33,591 bases of DNA from Oscillospiraceae bacterium. GTDB lineage: Bacteria > Bacillota > Clostridia > Oscillospirales > Acutalibacteraceae. How positions within the stretch are numbered: the first letter of the stretch is position 1; each line of letters begins with the position of its first letter. Below the pieces are notes generated by a model that saw nothing but the letters and a program-made list of their open reading frames with translations, did not search any database and was not told where the DNA came from. Location of the stretch: contig SVOA01000010.1 in the NCBI GenBank assembly GCA_015066635.1, forward strand, positions 1 through 33,591. The letters are read 5' to 3'. Below are positions 1 through 12,293 of the stretch, one piece after another. The position numbers and the translations under genes are program-made.

Positions 1-3000
1 AAATCGGAAATAATGCTTTTGCTTATATCGGCACAATAGATTACATTGATATTCCTGCGTCGGTTACAAGCATTTCGGGCGGTGCCTTTTACGGAACTCA
101 GCCGACTGAGATATACAGCTTCGCAGATCCTGACAGCTTGACATGGAGCAATACTGCTGATGAGCTTCTTCCCTCAAAGCAGACTGTTGTCCATGTTTAC
201 AGTCAGTATCTTTCACGCTATCAGGAAAAATTCGGCGACTCTGTCAATGCTACCTTTGTAGGCGACCTTGACTCAAAAATACATGATATCACGGTTGTTC
301 AGCCAGCTCACGGTACTGTTACCGCTGATTGTGAGACAGTTCATACGGGAACAGTTGTCAGGCTTACAAATACCGCTGATTCAGGCTACGGACTTAAAAA
401 ATATGCTGTAAGAGATACAAAGAAAAATAACATTCCCGTTACCGACGGCGCCTTCGTTATGCCCGACAGAGATGTTATAGTAACCGCCGAATTCAGCAGG
501 ATTTATTCAATCGCTTATGAGGTGGCTTCGGGCGAGGGTACTATTGAGGTGCCGAATAATGCGCCTGTGGGTACAACGGTTACCGTAACCGTCAACCCAT
601 ATACAAATAATGATTTGAAGAGACTGTATTATACAGATTCGAACGGCGAGGTTACCGAAATTACAGATAATCAGTTTGTAATGCCTGCTTCCGATATTAC
701 CGTTACGGCTGAATTCGGTCCGATAGATTATAATGTAACCTATTCTGACGCTCAGAACGGCTCTGTAACAGGCGTTGCGACCGCACACCTCGGCGATTTG
801 ATTGAGCTTACTGTTACGCCGGATGAGGCATACAAGCTAAATTCACTGACAGTTACGGACAGCGAAGGCAACGAAGTGAGTGTAACCGACGATTATAAGT
901 TCAATATGCCTGCTTCCGATGTTACAGTCAGTGCAGAGTTCGTAAGGGATTATTACAGAATCACGTATTCCGATACTCAGAACGGCACTCTCAGCGGTGT
1001 TCTCACGGCTCATGAAGGCGAAACAGTAACGCTTACCGTAACATCCGATGATTATTATGAAGCAAAATCGGTGTTTTTTACGGATTCAAACGGTGATGAG
1101 TTCTCAATAACAGACGATAGGTTCGTTATGCCCGCATCGGATATAACCGTAAATGCTGCCTTTGAAAAGATTGATTATGATATCTATTATATTGAAGCCG
1201 AAAACGGCTCTGTAACAGGCGCGAGTACCGCTAACTACGGCGACGAGGTAGAACTTACCGTTACGCCTGAAATAGGTTATAAGCTTGAGACACTGAGCGT
1301 TAGGGATGCTGACGAAAACGAGATTCAGGTTACTGACGGCAGATTTACAATGCCTGGCTCTGATGTTTCAATCAGCTCAAGCTTTGCAATTGCGGACTAT
1401 AACATTAATTACGTTACCGAGCGGTGCGTCGTATCGGGACCGGAGTGTGCAAACTACGGCGATGAAATTACATTAACGATAACGCCTGATGAAAACTGTG
1501 TCATTGATAAGGTTACAGTTATGGATGCAGATAACAATGTTATCCCTGTAAACGCTGATAAGTTCATTATGCCTGCTTCCGATGTGACAGTGACGGTCGA
1601 AGCTCTTCCCATTACGGCATATGCGGAATATGACTACGAAACGCAGATTCTGTACTTCCGTTACGGACCTTACCGTGAGACTTCGGATTCGTGGGAGATT
1701 AAAGATGACTCGATAAAGCCATGGAAGTATATACGGTATATTACTAAGGCTGTTTTCGACCCCTCCTTTGTCCAAGCAAGACCGAAGAATACTCGTTCAT
1801 GGTTCGCAGCGTACGACTCGTTAACTGATATAGAAGGCATTGAATATCTGAACACATCCGAGGTAACGGATATGAACTCAATGTTCTACGGTTACACAGG
1901 TGCGTCCCTTGATGTCAGCGGCTTCGACACCTCAAAGGTAACTGATTTTGAGGATATGTTCTACGGCTGTAAAAACCTTACGTCCCTTGATGTCAGCGGC
2001 TTCGACACTTCAAGTGCTGAATCTTTAAAGAATATGTTCTATAATTGTGAGAATTTGATCTCGATCGATGTCAGCGGCTTTAACACCTCTAAGGTAACCG
2101 ATATGGGCGGTATGTTCGCATCCTGCAGTGGACTTACATCGATTGACGTAAGCAATTTTGATACTTCAAGTCTTAAAGATATAAGCACTATGTTTGCCGG
2201 CTGTACCCAGCTTAAAACGATTGATTTGCGAAGCTTTAATGTTCCGAAATACAATAATGCGGTGTTGGTTTTCCGCGACTGCGTGAATCTTGAAACAATC
2301 TATGTTGCAACTGCCGATACAGCGTGGAAGGCAAACAGCGGCTGGAATGTTTTTTATAATTGTGAAAAGCTTGTCGGAGGAACGGGTACGCCCTTTGACA
2401 GCGAAAATGTTGATATATCAATGGCGAAGGTTCAGGACGGGTACTTTACAGCCAAGCCTTTCGATATAACGGTTGTAAATGCTTCGGGCGGTGCTGTTGA
2501 GGCTGATAAGTCTCAGGCTTATATGGGTGATACGGTTTCACTTGATTTCACTTCTGATGATAATATGGTATTCAGCCACTATACCGTTACCGACAAAAAC
2601 GGCGGCAAGGTTACGGTAAACGGTGATACCTTCACAATGCCCGCTTCCGATGTAACCGTTACGGCAGTATTCAGAGAGCAGGGAATATACGATATCAACG
2701 AGGACGGCATTGAGGACATAAACGATATTGCATTTATCATCTCTGCGTCAGTCGGAGACGTTGAAATGACAGCTTCACAGCAAGCGAAAGCTGACCTTAA
2801 CGGCGACGGCGTTATTGACGGCTTTGATGCCGCAGAGCTTGACAGGATACTCTTTGCAAATGACTGCGAAGCAGGCGACGTAGATATGGACGGCGATATT
2901 GACCTTGTCGACTATGCAATAGTAAAGGCTCATATTTCGGGCGTTGACTCTGATGAGAATCATCCTGCAAATCTGCTTGATAAGAGCTATCTGACGGCTG

Positions 3001-3140
3001 AATATGACAGCATAAAGGATAGCTATGACAATGGTGTTATCATCACTCCGATTTATTACAATGCCGACATCAATAAGGACAAAGCAGTAGATGCGTTTGA
3101 CCTGTTCGATCTTGATAAACGCATAAACGGTCTTGCATAG
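1..3140 (+). CDS. BspA-like surface protein with InlB-B-like repeats and dockerin-like C-terminus (5' partial)
   Basis: The frame is open from base 3, so the gene begins left of the window; the TTG at 138 is an internal codon, not a start. About 1045 residues are visible. The first ~50 read as a BspA-type leucine-rich repeat (IPASVTSISGGAF). Bases ~280-1610 encode six tandem modules of about 70 residues, each ending in a form of MPASDVTVTAEF, resembling divergent InlB B-repeats. Bases ~1610-2330 hold DUF285-type BspA repeats built on SLDVSGFDTSKVTDM. A seventh B-like module follows (~2460-2675). The last ~155 residues carry four dockerin-type calcium loops (DINEDGIEDINDI, DLNGDGVIDGFD, DVDMDGDIDLVD, DINKDKAVDAFD). 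Such proteins are typically secreted and adhesive; a dockerin would dock on a cohesin scaffold. Role in adhesion or a cellulosome-like complex is inferred. The neighbour at 3335 shares the C-terminal module. Confidence 0.85.
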   Translation, partial: IGNNAFAYIGTIDYIDIPASVTSISGGAFYGTQPTEIYSFADPDSLTWSNTADELLPSKQTVVHVYSQYLSRYQEKFGDSVNATFVGDLDSKIHDITVVQPAHGTVTADCETVHTGTVVRLTNTADSGYGLKKYAVRDTKKNNIPVTDGAFVMPDRDVIVTAEFSRIYSIAYEVASGEGTIEVPNNAPVGTTVTVTVNPYTNNDLKRLYYTDSNGEVTEITDNQFVMPASDITVTAEFGPIDYNVTYSDAQNGSVTGVATAHLGDLIELTVTPDEAYKLNSLTVTDSEGNEVSVTDDYKFNMPASDVTVSAEFVRDYYRITYSDTQNGTLSGVLTAHEGETVTLTVTSDDYYEAKSVFFTDSNGDEFSITDDRFVMPASDITVNAAFEKIDYDIYYIEAENGSVTGASTANYGDEVELTVTPEIGYKLETLSVRDADENEIQVTDGRFTMPGSDVSISSSFAIADYNINYVTERCVVSGPECANYGDEITLTITPDENCVIDKVTVMDADNNVIPVNADKFIMPASDVTVTVEALPITAYAEYDYETQILYFRYGPYRETSDSWEIKDDSIKPWKYIRYITKAVFDPSFVQARPKNTRSWFAAYDSLTDIEGIEYLNTSEVTDMNSMFYGYTGASLDVSGFDTSKVTDFEDMFYGCKNLTSLDVSGFDTSSAESLKNMFYNCENLISIDVSGFNTSKVTDMGGMFASCSGLTSIDVSNFDTSSLKDISTMFAGCTQLKTIDLRSFNVPKYNNAVLVFRDCVNLETIYVATADTAWKANSGWNVFYNCEKLVGGTGTPFDSENVDISMAKVQDGYFTAKPFDITVVNASGGAVEADKSQAYMGDTVSLDFTSDDNMVFSHYTVTDKNGGKVTVNGDTFTMPASDVTVTAVFREQGIYDINEDGIEDINDIAFIISASVGDVEMTASQQAKADLNGDGVIDGFDAAELDRILFANDCEAGDVDMDGDIDLVDYAIVKAHISGVDSDENHPANLLDKSYLTAEYDSIKDSYDNGVIITPIYYNADINKDKAVDAFDLFDLDKRINGLA

Positions 3141-3334: not shown

Positions 3335-6325
3335 ATGAACTTGTTAAGAAAAATAACATCGGTTTTTATGGCGGCTATATTGTTGCTTGCTGCAATTCCG
3401 TTGACAGCATCTGCAGAAACCGAAACAGGTCGTTTGGGCAGTTCTAATGTTTATTATGAGCTGAATGACGACGGAACTTTGCGCCTTTACGGCAGCGGTG
3501 CTACACCGAATTATTCGGGAACTAATCAGAGCCCGTTTGTAGAAATCGGTTACATAAATAAAATCATTGTAGATGAAGGTGTTACAAAGCTCGGCGACTA
3601 TATTTTCGAAAGATGCGATGTAACGGAGGTCAGTCTCCCGACATCTCTTCGTGATCTGGGTATGTTTGTCTTTGGCGGTTGTGAATACTTAGAGGAAATT
3701 GAGCTTCAAAGTGCTACCAGAACCTTCGGTATAGGCGTTTTTTATCATTGCTCCTCGCTTAAAAAAATAACTTTTCATGCAAATACGATTAATTGTTTTC
3801 AATTATATGAAAATGAAAACGGTTTTTCGTTTAACAGTTTGCTCAGCCCGGTTGAGAATGCTTCTGTTTACATTCCGCTTCCGATTACTGTTAACGAAAG
3901 TCTGTCGGGCGTCTCGACAAATGTTACAGGTTATGAAAAAGCAGCGGAACTTTTTAATAAAAACGGCAATACTGTCTACTGCGTAAACAGTAACGCCACA
4001 ATCAAGTGGAAAAACTACGACGGTACGGTGCTTGAAACCGACACCAATGCCGCACAGGGTGAGATACCCACTTATGACGGCGCAACTCCCGAAAAGCCTG
4101 TTGATGACAATTTCGGCTACGTTTTCAGCGGTTGGACTCCCGAGCCTTTTGCAGTTATGGGCGATATGTCATACACCGCTGTATTTGAAACCGTTGACAG
4201 AACGGCATATATTGACGAAAACGGTGTAACGCAGTATGCCGGCACTCGCACCCTTACCGGCACCGAGACCGAGCTTCCCGGCGGCTGGTATGTGGTTTAC
4301 GGTAATATTACATATAACAATAATCTCAGCTTCAAGGGCGATGTTCGTATCATTTTGGCTGACGGCGCAACAATGAATACGTTGGGAACAACAAATTATT
4401 CGGTTCTTTCTGACGCAGGTCTTTCCATATACTGTCAGGAAGGAAGGACAGGAGCTTTAATCTCTGACGGAATAGTCGCTACTTACGTTAAAATCTGCGG
4501 CGGCAACGTTAATATAGCGAATACGATTATGACTGCCTATGATGTCGATATATACGGCGGCCGGGTTGATGTCGGCTCTATTATCTGGTCTATGGGCGGC
4601 AATATGAATATTTACGGCGGTAATACGAGCGTAAACAGTTACATAGCTGTTAAAAATGCAATTACGATAGGATATAAAAAGCCCACAGACAGTATCTATT
4701 CAAAAGAATATAGAATATCAAATACGGGTACGGGTATACAAGCTATCACCTTCGCCGACGGTCAATCCTTCAAAAATGCAAATGATGCGACCGAGATATT
4801 TACCGGAACGGCTGATCTTGATGCGGTTAAAGAAAAAACTCTTGTTCCGTACTCATATAATATGATTACGTATGCTTCTGATGAATACGGAACTGTAACA
4901 GGAGTCAGCGGAGCGAATTTCGGCGATGAGATTACGCTTACCGTTTCGCCAAATACAGGATGCTATCTTGATAGCTTAACTGTTAAGGACGGCAATAACA
5001 ATGAAATTACCGTAACTGACGGCATTTTTATAATGCCCGACTCCGCCGTTACGGTTACGGCAGATTTTAAAATTCACACCTACACCGTCAACTTCGTTAT
5101 AGACGGCGTAACCGTTGAAACGGATGAAAATGTGCCTTACGGTGATTTGCCGATATTTAACGGCGAAATTACCGAAACGTATTTTGATGAAAACGGTATG
5201 GAATACAGGTTTGCGGGTTGGACTCCCGAGCCTGCCGAGGTTACGGATAATATTACCTATACTGCAACCTATGCTTTAAGCGGAAGAATCAGAGTTAATT
5301 ACCTTGATGAAAACCAAAACACTCAGACGGTTGTAGCGAATATACTGACGGGCAATGAAACAACTCTTACAGAGGGTTGGTACTTCGTCAAGGACAATAT
5401 TTCTTACAGCGGCGAGCTTAAGCTTTTGGATTCGGTTAATCTTATCCTCGGCGACAATGCCGTAATGAGTACTGCTAAGGGAATGACATACGCACACTCC
5501 GGTTCGCCCTGGCATCTGAATGTTTATGCTCAGAGCGGGCAGAGCGGACAGGTCGGAACTCTGAATATAAACGACGTAAGTACATTTTACAGCCTTAAGG
5601 TTTGCGGCGGTAACGTGAACTTTAAAAGCATTATGGCCATGAACACAAGCATTTTAGGCGGCAGATTTACATCAACCGGAATCATGGCTATAAACGACGG
5701 TGAAATCACTCTGGGCTGTAATACCGCTGACAGCAGTATTACTGTCGGCAGTTATTCCGGCACGGTTAAAATCGTTGACGGTCAAACACTGATAGACGGA
5801 AAACGTGCATACAGAGGTACTGTATCCGACAACTCAAAGCTTGCGGATAAAACTCTTGTTGCCGGCGTGCTTAAGTATGATATAAATGAGGATGACGTTG
5901 AGGACATAAACGATATTGCGTTTATTATTGCCGCCTCGCAGGGTGAGGCAACAATGACCGAAACGCAAGCCGCCAAAGCCGACCTCAACCTTGACGGTGT
6001 TGACGTATTTGATGCAGCAGAGCTTGACAGGATTTTCTACGCACCCGATACCGATGACGGCGATGTCAATCAGGACGGCAATATTGATCTTGCTGACTAT
6101 GCAATGATAAGGTCGCATATTTCAGGCGTTGACTCTGATGAGAATCATCCTGCAAACCTGCTTGACAAGAGTTATCTCTCTGCAGAATATGACAGTATAA
6201 AGGATAGCTATGACAACGGTGTTATCATCACTCCGGTTTATTACAATGCCGACATCAATAAGGACAAAGCAGTTGATGCGTTTGACCTGTTCTATCTTGA
6301 TAAACGCATAAACGGTCTTGCATAG
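3335..6325 (+). CDS. Secreted BspA-like LRR protein with beta-repeat modules and dockerin-like C-terminus
   Basis: 996 residues, ATG with AAGGAG six bases upstream. Residues 1-27 are a signal peptide (KIT, hydrophobic core, cut after TASA). Residues ~35-165 are BspA/LRR_5-type repeats. Residues ~219-288 and ~582-648 resemble Listeria-Bacteroides (Flg_new) repeats, each with the motif GWTPEP. Residues ~289-505 and ~650-845 are two copies of a glycine- and asparagine-rich module (GWYVVYGNITY / GWYFVKDNISY; both with CGGNVN) that looks like a beta-helix. One divergent InlB-B-like module lies between (~510-580). The C-terminal ~150 residues hold four dockerin-type loops nearly identical to those of the upstream protein, but the second loop (DLNLDGVDVFDAAELD) is one residue shorter. 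Probably a secreted, complex-anchored adhesin or carbohydrate-binding protein; the substrate is unknown. Confidence 0.88.
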   Translation: MNLLRKITSVFMAAILLLAAIPLTASAETETGRLGSSNVYYELNDDGTLRLYGSGATPNYSGTNQSPFVEIGYINKIIVDEGVTKLGDYIFERCDVTEVSLPTSLRDLGMFVFGGCEYLEEIELQSATRTFGIGVFYHCSSLKKITFHANTINCFQLYENENGFSFNSLLSPVENASVYIPLPITVNESLSGVSTNVTGYEKAAELFNKNGNTVYCVNSNATIKWKNYDGTVLETDTNAAQGEIPTYDGATPEKPVDDNFGYVFSGWTPEPFAVMGDMSYTAVFETVDRTAYIDENGVTQYAGTRTLTGTETELPGGWYVVYGNITYNNNLSFKGDVRIILADGATMNTLGTTNYSVLSDAGLSIYCQEGRTGALISDGIVATYVKICGGNVNIANTIMTAYDVDIYGGRVDVGSIIWSMGGNMNIYGGNTSVNSYIAVKNAITIGYKKPTDSIYSKEYRISNTGTGIQAITFADGQSFKNANDATEIFTGTADLDAVKEKTLVPYSYNMITYASDEYGTVTGVSGANFGDEITLTVSPNTGCYLDSLTVKDGNNNEITVTDGIFIMPDSAVTVTADFKIHTYTVNFVIDGVTVETDENVPYGDLPIFNGEITETYFDENGMEYRFAGWTPEPAEVTDNITYTATYALSGRIRVNYLDENQNTQTVVANILTGNETTLTEGWYFVKDNISYSGELKLLDSVNLILGDNAVMSTAKGMTYAHSGSPWHLNVYAQSGQSGQVGTLNINDVSTFYSLKVCGGNVNFKSIMAMNTSILGGRFTSTGIMAINDGEITLGCNTADSSITVGSYSGTVKIVDGQTLIDGKRAYRGTVSDNSKLADKTLVAGVLKYDINEDDVEDINDIAFIIAASQGEATMTETQAAKADLNLDGVDVFDAAELDRIFYAPDTDDGDVNQDGNIDLADYAMIRSHISGVDSDENHPANLLDKSYLSAEYDSIKDSYDNGVIITPVYYNADINKDKAVDAFDLFYLDKRINGLA

Positions 6326-6669: not shown

Positions 6670-6685
6670 AATCCAAACCGATTTT

Positions 6686-6717
6686 CCCCGAAGTGTTATT
6701 TGCTTCGGGGAATTTTT
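6686..6717 (+). terminator. Strong intrinsic terminator without a full gene upstream
   Basis: CCCCGAAG, nine-base loop, CTTCGGGG, then AATTTTT. The T run exists only on the plus strand, so it served a plus-strand transcript, presumably the gene whose tail is left at 6544-6669. Confidence 0.8.
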
Positions 6718-6846: not shown

Positions 6847-6875
6847 TTGAACTTTTTACGGTTTTTAATTATAAT
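6847..6875 (+). promoter_or_regulatory. Sigma-A-type promoter of the STAS/PP2C operon
   Basis: TTGAAC (6847-6852), 17-base spacer, TATAAT (6870-6875), 32 bases before the first start codon. A second TATAAT at 6881 lacks a -35 at the right distance. No other promoter was seen before 12220, so the six genes probably share this one. Confidence 0.7.
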
Positions 6876-6907
6876 TAGTATATAATATTTAAACAGAGGT
6901 GTTATTT

Positions 6908-7204
6908 ATGAATTTTTCAAGCAAAAAGGAAGGCAATACGCTTACAGTCAGTGTATCGGGAAGAATAGATACAAATTCAGCACCGGAGCTTGAAAAGCAT
7001 ATTACTGATAATTTAGACGGTATTACTGAGCTTATACTTGATTTAAAGGATATTACATATACTTCATCAGCAGGGCTCAGGGTTTTTCTCAAAGCTCAGA
7101 AGCTTATGAACAAGCAGGGTGTAATGACTCTTAAAAATGTCAGGGAAGAGGTAATGGATATTTTTGAGTTAACAGGATTTTCGGGTATTTTGAATATTGA
7201 ATAA
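6908..7204 (+). CDS. STAS-domain anti-sigma factor antagonist
   Basis: 98 residues, one STAS domain of the SpoIIAA/RsbV type. The motif YTSSAGLRV (from residue 51) aligns with the phosphorylation loop of SpoIIAA, putting the likely phospho-acceptor at Ser54. In this family the unphosphorylated form binds an anti-sigma kinase and frees its partner; phosphorylation turns it off. The start is ATG 6908 because AGAGG (6895-6899) lies eight bases upstream; an earlier in-frame GTG at 6899 overlaps that site. The next gene supplies both a phosphatase and a kinase domain that could act on this Ser. No sigma factor gene is nearby, so the final target is unknown. Confidence 0.85.
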   Translation: MNFSSKKEGNTLTVSVSGRIDTNSAPELEKHITDNLDGITELILDLKDITYTSSAGLRVFLKAQKLMNKQGVMTLKNVREEVMDIFELTGFSGILNIE

Positions 7205-7239
7205 ATCTAATTGCTGTATCAAAGAACGGATTTGATTAA

Positions 7240-8991
7240 ATGGATAATACAATTTTTACAAAATTGATAGGTACGTCGGCGGTTATACTTGTAATAGCCG
7301 CGTTTATCGGCGGCAGTGATATACTCTCAAAATATATGCAGTCCGACAAGAAATGGAAATATTCGGTTATTTCGGGCATACTCGGTGGAGCGCTCGGAAT
7401 TTACGGTAATCTTTCCGGCTTTAATCTTAACGGCGCAGTTGTTTCGGTCAGAGACATAGGCCCCATGCTTTCGGGCTTTGTCGGCGGACCGGTAGGCGGT
7501 ATCATTGCCGGACTTATTGCAGGCATACACAGACTGACTCTCGGCGGCATTACCGCTCAGGCGTGCGTTGTTGCGACCTGTTGTATAGGTTTAATCAGCG
7601 GTTTGCTTTCAATGAAACGCCACGAACAGATGAAAAAGCTTTATTTTTCTTTTTTGCTCGGTGTTCTGTCAGAAGCTTTCCATCTCGGGATAGTTCTCAT
7701 TATGGTTAAGCCGTTTGAAACGGCTCTTGACATAGTCAAGCAGATAGCAGTGCCGTTTATTCTTATAAACGCTGTCGGCTTTACTTTGATGGTAGCTATA
7801 ATAACCTACACGGAGAAACAAAGGAGTCTTGTTGAGGAAAAAAGCCGTATGCAGTCCGAATTGGAGGTTGCTACGGTAATTCAGCATTCCCTGCTTCCCA
7901 CGATAAGCGAAAATTATCCCGGACGCAAAGAGATTGACGTAAGCGCATTTATGGAAACGGCCAAAGAGGTCGGCGGCGACTTTTATGACGTGTTCTTCGT
8001 TGACTCAAACCGTATTGCTTTTGAAATCGGTGATGTTTCCGGCAAGGGCGTTCCCGCCGCGCTGTTTATGGCTACGGCTAAAATGACGCTTCAGAACTGT
8101 ATAAGAGATATTCCGTCTCTTTCACAGGCAATGGCAACTGCAAACAATTCCCTCTGCGCGAGAAACGAAGCGGATATGTTTGTTACGCTCTGGGTGGGAA
8201 TTTTAGACCTTTCGAGCGGAGAGATGACATATGTGAGCGCAGGTCATAACCCTCCTGTTGCAGTCAGCGGAGACAAAGCCGATTTCCTTAAAACCAAAAA
8301 CGGCTTTGTTCTTGCCGGAATGGAGGACGTTATATACAAAGAGAATACAATTAAGTTTAACAGCGGCGACGTTCTCTGTCTTTATACGGACGGCGTAACG
8401 GAGGCGAACAATTCCGATAAAGAGCTTTTCGGCGATGATAGACTTCTGAAATGTTTTGACGGTATTCGGAATGTTTCGGCAGAGCAGCTTTTAAGCAACG
8501 TAAAGAATTCCGTTGACGAATTTGTCGGAGATGCGGATCAGTTTGACGATCTTACGATGCTCTGTTTCATATTTAAGGGCAACAAAAACGAGGATAAGCT
8601 TACGGTTGAAGCAAAAAAGGAAAACCTTGACGAGGTTATCGGCTTTGTTGACGGTTATCTTGAAAAATCGGACTGTCCGATGAAAGCACAAATGCAGATA
8701 AACCTTGCAGTTGAGGAAATATTTGTAAATATTGCTTCTTACGCTTACGGCGGTAAAAACGGGACTGCCGAAATCACGATGTCCGGTGAGGAAAATGAAG
8801 TTACGATTACTTTTGCCGACAGCGGTATCCCGTACAACCCGCTTGAAAAGGAAGATCCCGATATTTCTCTGTCCGCAGACGTACGTGAAATCGGAGGCTT
8901 GGGAATATTCCTTGTAAAAAAGAATATGGACAACGTTTCCTATGATTATACTGACGGGAAAAATATCCTGACTATTAAAAAAACAATTTGA
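7240..8991 (+). CDS. Membrane LytS-type sensor fused to PP2C (SpoIIE/RsbU) phosphatase and RsbW-like kinase domain
   Basis: 583 residues. Residues 1-195 form about six membrane helices with the 5TM-5TMR_LYT hallmark (VRDIGPMLSGFVGGPVGG, then AGIHR.TLGG). A short coiled stretch leads into a PP2C domain (~205-450) with the metal and active-site motifs GGDFYD (~244), IGDVSGKG (~263), AGHNPP, YTDGVTEA (~381) and DDLTML (~436). Residues ~455-583 are a GHKL/HATPase domain with an N box (AVEEIFVNI), ADSGIPYNP and GGLGIFLVKK, as in RsbW/SpoIIAB. Phosphatase and kinase of a partner switch are thus in one chain, presumably acting oppositely on STAS proteins such as the one 36 bases upstream. The ligand sensed is unknown. 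The ribosome binding site is weak (ACGGA). Confidence 0.88.
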   Translation: MDNTIFTKLIGTSAVILVIAAFIGGSDILSKYMQSDKKWKYSVISGILGGALGIYGNLSGFNLNGAVVSVRDIGPMLSGFVGGPVGGIIAGLIAGIHRLTLGGITAQACVVATCCIGLISGLLSMKRHEQMKKLYFSFLLGVLSEAFHLGIVLIMVKPFETALDIVKQIAVPFILINAVGFTLMVAIITYTEKQRSLVEEKSRMQSELEVATVIQHSLLPTISENYPGRKEIDVSAFMETAKEVGGDFYDVFFVDSNRIAFEIGDVSGKGVPAALFMATAKMTLQNCIRDIPSLSQAMATANNSLCARNEADMFVTLWVGILDLSSGEMTYVSAGHNPPVAVSGDKADFLKTKNGFVLAGMEDVIYKENTIKFNSGDVLCLYTDGVTEANNSDKELFGDDRLLKCFDGIRNVSAEQLLSNVKNSVDEFVGDADQFDDLTMLCFIFKGNKNEDKLTVEAKKENLDEVIGFVDGYLEKSDCPMKAQMQINLAVEEIFVNIASYAYGGKNGTAEITMSGEENEVTITFADSGIPYNPLEKEDPDISLSADVREIGGLGIFLVKKNMDNVSYDYTDGKNILTIKKTI

Positions 8992-9006
8992 CAAAAGGGG
9001 AAAGAT

Positions 9007-9666
9007 ATGGCGGTTGATTTTGAAAAAATGGCGATAAACGATACCTCCGGTTTCGTACTGCTTTCCGATTACATACCGGGTATCATACAGGAAATACGAT
9101 ATTTTTCCACATATAATTTTATAGGCGATAAAATAGACGGCTATGAAAGTCCGTGCGCACTTATTACAAAAGATGCGGCAAGGGCTCTGAAAGCCGTAGC
9201 AAATGAAATGAATGTCAAGGGTTACCGCCTTAAAATATTTGACGCTTACCGCCCTGCGACAGCTGTTAAGCATTTTGTGATGTGGGGAATAGAGGATCTT
9301 GACCAGAGAATGAAACCTTTTTTCTACCCCGATCTTGAGAAACAGGCTCTTTTTGAGCAGGGATATATTGCGAGCAAGTCAAGTCACAGCAGGGGAAGTA
9401 CCGTCGATTTGACGCTCCTTGATATGGCAACGGGTAAAGAAATAGATATGGGCAGTCCATTCGACTTCTTCAGCGATATTTCACACCCTGACTATATGGG
9501 CGTTACGGATGAACAGTATGAGAACAGAATGTTCCTTCAGTCTGTAATGGTGAGAAACGGTTTTGCACCGATAGACTGCGAATGGTGGCATTTTACACTC
9601 TGTAACGAGCCATATCCCGATACATATTTTGAATTTCCCAATGACCCTCATTTATTGAGTTTATAA
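9007..9666 (+). CDS. VanX/DdpX-like D-alanyl-D-alanine dipeptidase (peptidase M15D)
   Basis: 219 residues, close to the length of VanX-type enzymes. These zinc peptidases cut free D-Ala-D-Ala, removing cell-wall precursor or recycling it. Visible residues: Arg82 in FDAYRP (transition-state Arg), zinc ligands His127 and Asp134 in SSHSRGSTVDL, and catalytic Glu192 with zinc ligand His195 in EWWHF. No signal peptide is visible, so it probably acts in the cytoplasm like VanX. AGGGGAAAG precedes the ATG. No vanH, vanA or vanRS lie nearby, so this is more likely a housekeeping or signalling-linked dipeptidase than a glycopeptide-resistance gene. Confidence 0.85.
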   Translation: MAVDFEKMAINDTSGFVLLSDYIPGIIQEIRYFSTYNFIGDKIDGYESPCALITKDAARALKAVANEMNVKGYRLKIFDAYRPATAVKHFVMWGIEDLDQRMKPFFYPDLEKQALFEQGYIASKSSHSRGSTVDLTLLDMATGKEIDMGSPFDFFSDISHPDYMGVTDEQYENRMFLQSVMVRNGFAPIDCEWWHFTLCNEPYPDTYFEFPNDPHLLSL

Positions 9667-9676
9667 AGATACGGTG

Positions 9677-10246
9677 ATGAATATGAGCAATAATTTTGAA
9701 AACGCCGTGCGCTTTGCGTTAAAGGCACACAAAGGACAAAAGAGAAAAGACGGCAGCAGTTATATATTACATCCTTTAGAGGTTGCTGTTATTGCCGGTA
9801 CAATGACAAGAGATGAGGATGTGCTCGCTGCGGCGGTATTACATGATACGGTAGAGGACACGTCGGTAACTGCGGACGATATACTTGAAAATTTCGACGA
9901 CAGAATCGCATATCTTGTTGCAAGTGAAACCGAGGATAAGCGTCCTCAGATGAGCTCCTCGGAGAGCTGGAAAATACGCAAGGTCGAGTCGCTTGAGGAG
10001 CTTAAAAACTGTAATGACAGAGATGTCAGGGTTATATGGCTTGCAGACAAGCTGTCAAATTTGCGCTCGCTTTACCGTGATTTTTTAAAACAGGGACTTT
10101 CTGTTTTTGAAAAGTTTAATGAAAAAGATCCAAGGGAGCAGATGTGGTATCACTCGAAGGTACTTGAATATACATCAGAACTTTCGAACTATGCCGCATA
10201 TAAAGAATATAAAAACTATTTTGATTTAATATTTAAGGGTGTTTAA
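9677..10246 (+). CDS. HD-domain protein, small (p)ppGpp hydrolase-like (MESH1/SpoT HD type)
   Basis: About 189 residues containing only a RelA/SpoT-type HD domain: KGQKRKDGSSYILHP with the first His, then VLHDTVEDT with the His-Asp pair and the following Glu-Asp, and the later metal-site motif WLADKLSNLRSL. The length fits small alarmone hydrolases of the MESH1 type, which remove the 3' diphosphate of (p)ppGpp; activity on that substrate is inferred. No synthetase, TGS or ACT domain is present. Starts at 9674 (GTG), 9677 (ATG) and 9683 (ATG) are all possible, and no strong ribosome binding site decides. It lies 10 bases after the dipeptidase gene, so the two are co-transcribed. Confidence 0.75.
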   Translation: MNMSNNFENAVRFALKAHKGQKRKDGSSYILHPLEVAVIAGTMTRDEDVLAAAVLHDTVEDTSVTADDILENFDDRIAYLVASETEDKRPQMSSSESWKIRKVESLEELKNCNDRDVRVIWLADKLSNLRSLYRDFLKQGLSVFEKFNEKDPREQMWYHSKVLEYTSELSNYAAYKEYKNYFDLIFKGV

Positions 10247-10259
10247 GCAGGAGGTTATT

Positions 10260-11405
10260 ATGGAAAAAACTATCGCATTAAAAGGCAGAATCGACTCGTC
10301 AAACGCGGCTGAAAGAGAGCTCGAAATTCAAAATCAGTTAAACGGATTTGACGGCGACGTTATCCTTGACGCTTCGGAGCTTGAGTATATTTCGAGTGCC
10401 GGACTTCGGGTCATACTCAGATTAAAAAAAGCAAATCCCTCAACAAAAATCGTCAACTGTAATTCAGAGGTTTACGAGATTTTTGATATGACGGGTTTTA
10501 CCGAGATGATGAATATTTCCAAAGCTTACCGCAAACTCTCGATAGAGGGCTGCGAGGTAATAGGCGAGGGTGCAAACGGCATTGTTTACAGAACGGATCC
10601 CGATACAATCGTCAAAGTTTATAAAAATCACGATGCGCTTGAGGAAATTCATAATGAAAGAGAACTCGCAAGAAAGGCATTTGTTATGGGAATTCCAACG
10701 GCAATTCCATATGACGTTGTTCAGGTCGGCGACCTTTACGGCTCTGTTTTTGAACTGCTCAACGCAAAATCTTTTGCAAAGCTTATAAGAGCGGGCGAAG
10801 ATGTCGAAGATCTTGCAAGACAGAGCGTTGAAATCTTAAAAACAATCCATTCAACCGAATTAAAACCGGGCGAACTGCCGAGTAAAAAGCAGGAGTCTAT
10901 GAAATGGGTAAACTATACCAAAGAATATCTGCCTGCCGAAATCGGAGATAAGCTCCTTAAAATGTTTGAGGAAATCCCCGAAACAAACACAATGCTTCAC
11001 GGCGATTATCACGTCAAAAATATTATGCAGCAGAACGGCGAAAACCTGCTTATTGATATGGACACTCTTTCAATGGGACATCCCGTATATGAGTTCGCCG
11101 CAATTTATGCAGCTTATATCGGATATTCGTGCGCCGATCCGGATAATGCCGCAAATTTCTTTGAAATTCCCGGAGAAAAGTGTATTGATATGTGGAAATA
11201 CACAGTTAAGTATTACTTTGAAGGCAAGGATGAGCAGTACGTTGACGATATTATCAGAAAAGCGGCTGTTATCTGTTACACAAGGCTTCTTCGCTGGTAC
11301 GGAACAAAGAAAAGCCCCGACGATGCTGAAGCTCAGCAGGTTATAGCTTTTTGTAAGAAATATCTTTGCGAAAATGTACCTTTGATTGATTCGCTTTACT
11401 TTTAA
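10260..11405 (+). CDS. STAS domain fused to APH/choline-kinase-like phosphotransferase
   Basis: 381 residues. Residues 1-90 are a STAS domain with LEYISSAGLRV, Ser46 being the likely phospho-acceptor. Residues ~95-381 are a kinase of the aminoglycoside-phosphotransferase fold: GEGANGIVY (102-110), ATP-binding Lys119 in IVKVY, the catalytic loop HGDYHVKNI (Asp249, Asn254) and the metal-binding LIDMD (Asp266). It resembles the kinase-like family TIGR02172 as I remember it. The substrate is unknown: protein, sugar or small molecule. GCAGGAGG (10247-10254) fixes the start at ATG 10260 rather than the GTG at 10239. A STAS domain in cis suggests kinase output is switched by the phosphatase/kinase encoded at 7240. 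Confidence 0.82.
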   Translation: MEKTIALKGRIDSSNAAERELEIQNQLNGFDGDVILDASELEYISSAGLRVILRLKKANPSTKIVNCNSEVYEIFDMTGFTEMMNISKAYRKLSIEGCEVIGEGANGIVYRTDPDTIVKVYKNHDALEEIHNERELARKAFVMGIPTAIPYDVVQVGDLYGSVFELLNAKSFAKLIRAGEDVEDLARQSVEILKTIHSTELKPGELPSKKQESMKWVNYTKEYLPAEIGDKLLKMFEEIPETNTMLHGDYHVKNIMQQNGENLLIDMDTLSMGHPVYEFAAIYAAYIGYSCADPDNAANFFEIPGEKCIDMWKYTVKYYFEGKDEQYVDDIIRKAAVICYTRLLRWYGTKKSPDDAEAQQVIAFCKKYLCENVPLIDSLYF

Positions 11406-11407
11406 AA

Positions 11408-12220
11408 ATGGCATTTAAAGATAAAATTTCCGTTAACGGTTTTACAACCGAATATATAAAATTCGGCACCGGCAAAAAAACGCTTGTTATCCTTCCGGGG
11501 TTAAGTATTCAAAGCGTTGTTTCTGTCGCCGATGCCATAGAAAAACAGTACGCTGTTTTTCTGGACAAATATACGGTTTATCTATTTGAACGCAGGCAGG
11601 AATTACCCGTGAATTATTCGGTTTACGGTATGGCGGATGATATTTATACTGTTCTGCGAGCTTTAAATATAAATGACATCTGCCTTTTCGGCGTTTCTCA
11701 GAGCGGTATGATAGCTATGTTGCTGACGGCAGAGCATCCGGAACTTGTTGACAGACTTGCTGTATGCTCCACGGCGGCTTATATAGACAGCGCCCGAGCT
11801 TCGGTTATCAATGAGTGGATTTTTCTTGCCTCGCAGAAAAGAGTCGAAGACTTATATCTGTCATTTGCCAAAAGCGTTTATCCTGAAAAAATCTTTGCAC
11901 AGTATAAAGATATTTGGATCAATGCAGCTCAAAGCGTTACCGACAGAGAACTTGAGCATTTTATCGGGCTTGCAAAGGCAACAGAAGGCTTTGATATAAG
12001 AAAGCAACTTAATAAAATAACCTGTCCCGTCCTTGTTGTCGGGGATAGGCAGGATACGGTTTTGGGGTTGTCTGCAACAGAGGAAATTACAGACTGCATA
12101 AAGAATAATCTCTCGGTACGGGTTTATGTGTATAACGGCTTCGGACATGCTGTATATGATACGGCACCTGACTTTACTCAAAGGTTGTATAATTTTTTTG
12201 AGGAACGGAAAAACAAATGA
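11408..12220 (+). CDS. Alpha/beta hydrolase
   Basis: 270 residues of the alpha/beta-hydrolase fold. The nucleophile elbow is GVSQSG with Ser97 (the usual last Gly of GxSxG is Ser, followed by Gly). The acid is likely Asp216 in VGDRQD and the base His247 in GFGHAVYD. The oxyanion region is ILPGLS. The substrate cannot be read from sequence. The ATG is two bases after the preceding stop and has no clear ribosome binding site, so translation is probably coupled to the STAS-kinase gene. It is the last gene of the unit; no terminator is seen before the next promoter. Confidence 0.8.
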   Translation: MAFKDKISVNGFTTEYIKFGTGKKTLVILPGLSIQSVVSVADAIEKQYAVFLDKYTVYLFERRQELPVNYSVYGMADDIYTVLRALNINDICLFGVSQSGMIAMLLTAEHPELVDRLAVCSTAAYIDSARASVINEWIFLASQKRVEDLYLSFAKSVYPEKIFAQYKDIWINAAQSVTDRELEHFIGLAKATEGFDIRKQLNKITCPVLVVGDRQDTVLGLSATEEITDCIKNNLSVRVYVYNGFGHAVYDTAPDFTQRLYNFFEERKNK

Positions 12221-12264: not shown

Positions 12265-12293
12265 TTGACAATAATAAAAAAAAGATGTATATT
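12265..12293 (+). promoter_or_regulatory. Sigma-A-type promoter of the sugar transferase gene
   Basis: Consensus TTGACA (12265-12270), 17-base spacer, TATATT (12288-12293), 35 bases before the start codon. Confidence 0.75.

Follow-up and report, generated by a model that had tools for sequence, protein, structure and literature searches.

A partner-switching cassette from an Oscillospiraceae bacterium with a STAS-APH kinase as its proposed output

Partner switching is a textbook route by which sigma factors are freed. What, then, might a partner switch control where no sigma factor is encoded beside it? The question is raised by a cassette of six genes in contig SVOA01000010.1 of an Oscillospiraceae bacterium (assembly GCA_015066635.1; 1.73 Mb, 38 contigs, 97.38% complete), of which a stretch of 33,591 nucleotides, read on the forward strand, is the window analysed here. 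The genes encode a free STAS protein, a protein joining a 5TM_LYT sensor to SpoIIE (PP2C) and HATPase domains, a VanX-like dipeptidase, an HD_4 protein, a STAS domain fused to an APH-fold kinase (STAS-APH) and an alpha/beta hydrolase (Table 1). The conserved unit within the cassette consists of the free STAS protein, the sensor-PP2C-HATPase protein, the HD protein and STAS-APH, and it recurs in other Clostridia with its genes reshuffled and its sensors changed. We propose that it is probably a partner switch whose output is the kinase STAS-APH and not a sigma factor, the HD enzyme being a close accomplice.

The best evidence that the HATPase domain would act on STAS-APH comes from single-chain fusions. 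In six genomes (L013, L014, L016, L017, L019 and L129) the two are encoded in one open frame of about 530-555 codons, with the HATPase at the C-terminus of STAS-APH. The fusions form one clade (100/100) in a tree of 19 STAS-APH proteins, a clade that includes one unfused member, G036; the HD-adjacent forms of STAS-APH are not part of it, G074 having a long branch and an unsure place. No HD protein (E <= 1e-25) was found in the five fusion genomes belonging to the family sample (150 genomes of the window's family, its own included), and none lies within the 12 kb fetched from the sixth, G464, which belongs to another family. A sequence-only reading of the window had suggested a membrane-sensed phospho-switch with the STAS-kinase as its likely output; the six fusions, the conserved neighbourhood and the lack of a sigma neighbour all point the same way.

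In STAS-APH itself the APH domain starts at about residue 92, and Ser46 of the STAS part, which aligns with the acceptor position of RsbV and SpoIIAA, is the predicted phospho-acceptor. Ser46, Lys119, Asp249, Asn254 and Asp266 are kept in 61/61 homologues and Asp268 in 60/61; we take the lysine, the asparagine and the three aspartates to be the APH catalytic residues. The APH part exceeds the PF01636 cut-off (58.6 vs 23.2 bits). Fold searches agree and return many APH enzymes; the VIA-align fold rows cover the APH part only (residues 88-377), the STAS part having been identified by sequence. Most PDB structures matched by the APH part are small-molecule kinases. A shared APH fold shows no substrate, and identity as an antibiotic kinase is not claimed. 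Plasmid and phage collections gave no match to STAS-APH, on which ground a plasmid or phage gene was rejected. Two records labelled Bacilli (L059 and L064) carry STAS-APH at 66% identity, reflecting either a labelling issue or transfer.

The remaining parts of a switch of the RsbU/V/W type are also present, namely a STAS protein with a phospho-acceptor serine, an intact RsbW/SpoIIAB-like HATPase and a SpoIIE/RsbU-type PP2C. Ser54 of the free STAS protein aligns with the phosphorylated serine of RsbV and SpoIIAA (in the latter presumably Ser58) and is kept in 41/41 homologues. The sensor protein matches 5TM-5TMR_LYT (7.7e-42), SpoIIE (4.5e-47) and HATPase_c_2 (1.1e-21) in one chain. Its PP2C domain has PDB matches to Rv1364c (3.8e-12) and SpoIIE (3e-5), and its HATPase domain has profile matches to RsbW (1.8e-8) and SpoIIAB (1.9e-6). 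HATPase residues E50, N54, D84, G86, G110 and G112 (domain numbering), which we take to form the N, G1 and G2 boxes, are kept in 28/28 homologues. None of these proteins reaches an equivalog cut-off: against the 114.75 bits of the SpoIIAA model TIGR02886 the free STAS protein scores 50 and STAS-APH 27.4, and the HATPase scores 33.2/145, 28.5/155.05 and 27.1/135 bits against the RsbW and SpoIIAB models.

Genome-wide there are three matches to STAS_2 (PF13466), the one STAS model on which this count rests: the two STAS domains of the cassette and SpoIIAA at C33:60194. Identity between the two cassette domains is 41%, and to the organism's own SpoIIAA it is 24% and 20%. Since the third match belongs to the sporulation switch, the HATPase has two obvious clients, the neighbouring STAS domains. 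Further matches in the same genome are to HATPase_c_2 at C16:16899-17255 (a frame of 176 residues) and, below threshold, at C21, and to SpoIIE at C37 (long) and C27:3038-3259 (partial); no relative of the cassette proteins was seen in the C16 stretch (L151).

The grouping of these genes was followed in a scan using one genome per species, in which 477 of 500 pattern matches were STAS-APH-related stretches and the best 80 loci were kept. Record titles name a ruminant host for 34 of the 80. Clustering of open reading frames held 70/81 STAS-APH genes together in one cluster, and neighbours were therefore counted by tblastn; cluster c8, judged from its positions to consist of frames antisense to STAS-APH, was set aside. 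The HD gene lies directly upstream of STAS-APH (<150 bases, same strand) in 41 of the 78 loci whose upstream flank is 700 bases or longer. A STAS gene occurs within 3 kb in 39/80 loci, and PP2C or HATPase within 6 kb in 53/80, in 48 of them on the same strand. Flanks are often short (28/80 loci reach at least 21 kb), so these distance counts are lower bounds. Where both flanks extend for at least 4 kb (44 loci), STAS or PP2C/HATPase is found within 6 kb in 36, and the figure rises to 40 when HD is also counted. A set of 17 loci from 17 STAS-APH genomes, four of them also among the 80, has STAS, HATPase or SpoIIE in 15 and HD directly upstream in 7.

Gene order varies around this core. The window reads STAS-PP2C/HATPase-VanX-HD-STAS-APH-hydrolase, locus L035 (91% STAS-APH identity) reads STAS-PP2C/HATPase-HD-STAS-APH, and L134 (genome G098, same genus) reads HD-STAS-APH-STAS-5TM/PP2C/HATPase. 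The sensor varies too, being of the 5TM type in 7/80 loci and another N-terminal part in 30/80, and in some loci the HATPase can be a separate small protein. With a membrane sensor that can be exchanged in this way, the cassette does not point to one particular signal.

Across whole genomes the same partners tend to occur together. Part of STAS-APH is matched in 56/150 genomes of the family (E <= 0.001), in many by just a STAS or an APH domain; a match covering most of the protein (E <= 7.3e-93) is found in 18/150, G089 being cut at a contig start. The HD protein (E <= 1e-25) occurs in 9/150 genomes, all among these 18, and the HATPase (E <= 1e-15) in 37/150, including 16 of the 18. Hypergeometric p values for occurrence with STAS-APH are 5.9e-10 for HD, 3.4e-11 for the hydrolase, 1e-9 for the HATPase and, for the VanX-like protein, 1.3e-6 at >=74% identity or 3.1e-5 for all eight genomes. 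With the window's own genome left out they become 4.9e-9 (HD), 2e-10 (hydrolase), 3.8e-9 (HATPase) and 1.1e-5 (VanX-like; 2e-4 for all eight).

Since species are not independent, a tree of Dxs was built (one gene, FastTree; 136/150 genomes, 11 without a match and three with a broken gene being left out). STAS-APH needs 17 changes on this tree vs a shuffled mean of 17.2, with 295/500 shuffles as low. Such a patchy distribution is consistent with transfer or repeated loss. In 14 independent pairs, genes went the same way as STAS-APH by 7.0:0 for HD (median p 0.016), 11.4:0.3 for the HATPase (p 0.001), 8.8:0.2 for the hydrolase (p 0.004) and 4.5:0 for the VanX-like gene (p 0.06, too few). In a phylum-wide sample 5/398 genomes match STAS-APH at E <= 1e-20: the window's own and G464 at full length, G395 and G545 essentially in the APH part, and G178 over the first 60%.

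The HD protein is a frequent companion of the kinase. It is a stand-alone HD_4 protein of 187-190 residues without a synthetase domain, has Lmo0812, RelA/SpoT and MESH1 as PDB relatives, and keeps H30, H54, D55, E58, D59 and D122, presumably its catalytic residues, in 41/41 homologues. It thus has the marks of a small alarmone hydrolase, and none of the cassette genes showed an alarmone synthetase domain in the Pfam scan. Members of that family act on alarmones or NADPH, according to the available part of PMC9765508, and by analogy the cassette protein probably does the same. The suggested tie between the switch kinase and an alarmone-hydrolase-like protein was borne out: of the 9 sampled genomes with HD, 8 have it next to STAS-APH, and the ninth, G015, carries it on another contig than STAS-APH.

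These observations suggest the following scheme. The 5TM domain of the membrane protein would sense a signal, and the HATPase domain of the same protein would phosphorylate, and its PP2C domain dephosphorylate, the two paralogous STAS domains, those of the free STAS protein and of STAS-APH. When the phosphatase is active, unphosphorylated free STAS would take up the HATPase, so that the STAS domain of STAS-APH would be neither bound nor phosphorylated. This would change the activity of the APH-fold kinase, in either direction, and the kinase would modify a small molecule or a protein. The HD enzyme, to judge from its family, would remove pyrophosphate or phosphate from a nucleotide, with (p)ppGpp, (p)ppApp and NADPH as candidates. 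As HD is tied to the kinase by both neighbourhood and co-occurrence, the cassette would adjust nucleotide signals and the kinase product together.

Several observations weigh against this proposal. Four of the 44 well-flanked loci (L036, L045, L065 and L069) have no partner at all; L036 is among the three closest relatives (80% identity) and has none in its 15.6 kb. Roughly half of the loci lack HD in the vicinity of STAS-APH. The HATPase occurs without full-length STAS-APH in 21/150 genomes, which means that the switch also serves other outputs, sigma factors possibly among them; L024 and L026 belong to this group, several members of which have a STAS gene beside the HATPase. Shared habitat could be part of the cause of the genome-level co-occurrence, the figures for which come without a neutral rare-gene control. 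The window's own genome has 10 matches to the SigBFG model, SigF included and the best at C12:3026, and given these a remote sigma target is possible.

The 21 genomes with the HATPase but no full-length STAS-APH and the 10 SigBFG matches, with a domain set that is that of RsbU/V/W, speak for an ordinary sigma-controlling switch, in which a remote sigma factor is held by the HATPase and freed by the free STAS protein, STAS-APH serving as a second input or being simply co-regulated. We regard this as rather unlikely. As the sequence-only reading had remarked, no sigma factor stands beside the cassette: none was found among the 27 window proteins scanned against Pfam, a few short open reading frames lying outside the scan, so that one mark of a partner switch, a sigma target encoded alongside, is missing from that set. 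With the organism's own SigF-like protein as query, SigF-like frames appear in 3/97 STAS-APH loci (L085, L087 and L147; the 97 represent 93 distinct places). The sporulation switch has a separate cluster of its own, in which SpoIIAA is followed by an HATPase (SpoIIAB, C33:60528) and the SigF-like protein (C33:60917). Genome G015 (97% complete) has STAS-APH, yet its best SigBFG match is 5.4e-40, a strength of match that long-frame sigma factors show in many genomes. That C33 cluster, and the lack of a SigF-level match in G015, also led us to reject a sporulation switch as the principal explanation, for all that spoIIIA genes lie downstream. The six single-chain fusions, finally, join the HATPase to a kinase. 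The preference of HD for STAS-APH could instead mean that the two form a metabolite pair, STAS-APH phosphorylating a small molecule and HD degrading that molecule or a related nucleotide, with the STAS domain serving oligomerisation or localisation and the switch proteins merely co-regulated. The frequent adjacency, the confinement of HD (E <= 1e-25), within the 150 family genomes, to those with STAS-APH and the small-molecule kinases among the PDB matches would suit such a pair; the invariant Ser46, the fusions to HATPase (five of them in family genomes that have no HD) and the many STAS-APH genes with no HD nearby argue against it and make it improbable.

A toxin-antitoxin-like or defence pair, in which HD would undo the kinase product, has the patchy distribution of STAS-APH in its favour. 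The frequent lack of HD beside the kinase and the lack of any plasmid or phage match speak against it, and we give it very little weight. No PADLOC anti-phage model matched the six window proteins at E <= 0.01, on which ground a defence system was dismissed. Just as remote is a chance grouping of unrelated genes behind one promoter. Repeated, reshuffled clustering on the same strand together with co-occurrence refutes it for STAS, PP2C/HATPase, HD and STAS-APH; it may still hold for the VanX-like gene and the hydrolase, both absent from the cassette in L035 and L134.

This also answers how large the unit is. The sequence-only reading had treated all six genes as one unit and expected the six families to co-occur in related genomes. 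That holds for STAS, PP2C/HATPase, HD and STAS-APH, which cluster; the other two are rarely nearby, lying within 10 kb of STAS-APH in 10/80 (VanX-like) and 14/80 (hydrolase) loci, always on the same strand. Because both are missing from the cassette in the close relatives L035 and L134, and L034 has no VanX-like gene (its contig ends 258 bases after STAS-APH), a six-gene unit was rejected and the conserved unit is smaller. In the window the two genes are accessory cargo of the same operon, and both are enriched in STAS-APH genomes. The VanX-like gene (E <= 1e-40) occurs in 8/150 genomes, six at >=74% identity and all among the 18 with STAS-APH, the other two at 51-55% identity and outside the 18; among the 150 it shares a contig with STAS-APH only in the window and in G065. 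The hydrolase (E <= 1e-25) occurs in 18/150 genomes, 13 of them among the 18, and beside STAS-APH only in the window. Besides the VanX-like gene, a wall link would draw on YkuD or DUF218 proteins in a few sister loci (clusters of 5 and 4 members, the family assigned from one member each).

The VanX-like protein matches the VanX structure 1r44 at 6.6e-47, and the residues aligned with the zinc ligands, the base (Glu) and the conserved Arg, roles that we assume to carry over, are invariant in 10/10 sequences. It thus shares these residues with VanX and DdpX. Unlike VanX it falls below the NCBIfam cut-off (NF033115; 206.9 vs 320 bits), and no D-Ala-D-lactate ligase or dehydrogenase is found among the 27 window proteins scanned. 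A coupling of the switch to D-Ala-D-Ala breakdown, as had been suggested, keeps the genome-level co-occurrence with STAS-APH and loses the cassette of the near relatives; a link to the cell wall is possible but weak.

A second possible output is seen in 15 loci that carry a sodium:dicarboxylate symporter (cluster c4; for example L096:7578-9173 and L038:11141-12736), in 10 of them directly after STAS-APH. One member was scanned and matches SDF at 6.4e-51, and the first 125 residues match the profile of the cassette HATPase (probability 95.9, E 6e-9). The structure model is of low confidence (predicted local distance difference test, pLDDT, 65), so the assignment of an N-terminal RsbW-like fold rests on the profile comparison. 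The domain appears degenerate. In the 14 of 15 that were aligned, the Asp of what we take to be the G1 box is kept in 0/14, the N-box Asn in 1/14 and two glycines of the presumed GGLG box in 0/14; the N-box Glu is kept in 11/14 and the G1 Gly in 13/14. Symporter matches that include the N-terminal part occur in three family genomes, all with STAS-APH, and the transporter part by itself in five, none with STAS-APH; the window's own genome has no match at E <= 1e-20. More tentatively, these cases may be instances of a transcription-free switch that directly gates enzymes and transporters (mostly STAS-APH, a self-contained STAS-APH-HATPase in one clade, the symporter in 15 loci), the RsbW-like domain of the symporter perhaps binding the STAS proteins that the cassette HATPase would bind. 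Such switches would make up a family of post-translational regulators that is spread horizontally, can swap sensors and has an alarmone hydrolase as a regular partner.

In the window the cassette extends from 6847, where a promoter-like site stands, to position 12220, and the open reading frames and Pfam domains of all six genes are present as first described, on the + strand and separated by 2-35 bases; the HD gene may alternatively start at a GTG at 9674. A terminator-like hairpin precedes the cassette at 6684-6712, and the terminator scan found no + strand terminator-like site within the six-gene unit. The next gene, for a polyprenyl glycosylphosphotransferase, has a promoter-like site of its own (12265-12293, 11/12 matches), and a further 10/12 match lies inside the hydrolase gene, the last of the cassette (11991-12018). 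The scan counted 23 such sites, with 14.8 +/- 4.1 in shuffles, and a promoter match by itself therefore says little. The free STAS gene is low in G+C (0.350; the other five genes 0.408-0.444), and codon composition gave no clear signal.

Table 1. Features of the cassette, with positions in the 33,591-nucleotide window.
Feature	Position	Strand	Basis
Candidate sigma-70 promoter, TTGAAC-17-TATAAT	6847..6875	+	10/12 matches; consensus match only
Free STAS protein (anti-anti-sigma type)	6908..7204	+	Pfam STAS 9.6e-17
5TM_LYT sensor, SpoIIE/PP2C and HATPase (RsbW-like kinase) fusion	7240..8991	+	Pfam, PDB relatives
VanX-like D-Ala-D-Ala dipeptidase (M15), accessory	9007..9666	+	Pfam Peptidase_M15 3.2e-40
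HD_4 protein, small-alarmone-hydrolase-like, directly upstream of STAS-APH	9683..10246	+	Pfam HD_4 2.2e-22
STAS-APH kinase fusion, proposed output	10260..11405	+	Pfam STAS 8.8e-10, APH 1e-15
Alpha/beta hydrolase, accessory	11408..12220	+	Pfam Abhydrolase_1 7.7e-13

To the left lie two large proteins with leucine-rich-repeat, Flg_new_2 and dockerin matches (window 138-3140 and 3335-6325). To the right are a YfhO protein on the opposite strand and matches to SpoIIIAA, AB, the AC/AD family, AE, AF and AH, and further on nusB, exonuclease VII, dxs, NAD kinase, argR, and recN-like and tyrS-like genes. This gene content on either side marks the region as a chromosomal stretch. A cassette of the same type, from a relative at 67% identity, likewise stands beside YfhO and SpoIIIAA relatives (L071:14120-19119).

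The fusion of a switch domain to a kinase, together with the chains in which the switch kinase is joined to that same protein, would identify a non-sigma output and tie it to an alarmone-hydrolase-like enzyme. If correct, the proposal would show how gut Clostridia could relay a membrane signal straight to metabolism. It also offers a rule for finding other outputs, which is to search for enzymes and transporters that carry a fused STAS or RsbW-like domain.

With RsbU/RsbV/RsbW and SpoIIE/SpoIIAA/SpoIIAB of Bacillus the cassette shares the STAS domain, the RsbW-type HATPase, the SpoIIE-type PP2C and the position of the phospho-acceptor serine. Unlike these sigma switches, it combines kinase and phosphatase in a single membrane protein, carries an additional STAS domain as part of an APH kinase, and has no sigma gene nearby. 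Within the APH/choline/MTR kinase fold, STAS-APH differs from the subfamily TIGR02172 by its N-terminal STAS domain and scores far below the cut-off (115.4 vs 228.2 bits). The HD protein resembles the small alarmone hydrolases Lmo0812 (compared by PDB name alone), MESH1 and XccSAH, as covered in the available part of PMC9765508, in being a stand-alone HD_4 with intact catalytic residues; unlike them, it is linked to a STAS-kinase. In the open-licence literature found on partner switching, STAS or APH, no STAS-APH fusion is described in titles or the openings of abstracts. Partner switching itself is known; the STAS-APH kinase variant appears new, because no described switch that we compared has such a kinase. 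Switches for which no sigma target is known are SypE/SypA, in which SypE is both kinase and phosphatase, BtrU/V/W, RbaV/W and HmpU/V/W (available part of PMC8256260), and the output of SiaABCD is a diguanylate cyclase (available part of PMC8457831). As described in these portions, none of the five has an APH-STAS fusion or an HD hydrolase partner. Like the cassette, all of them have an output that is not tied to a neighbouring sigma factor, and in the SiaC-SiaD pair the output of the switch is an enzyme, as we propose for STAS-APH.

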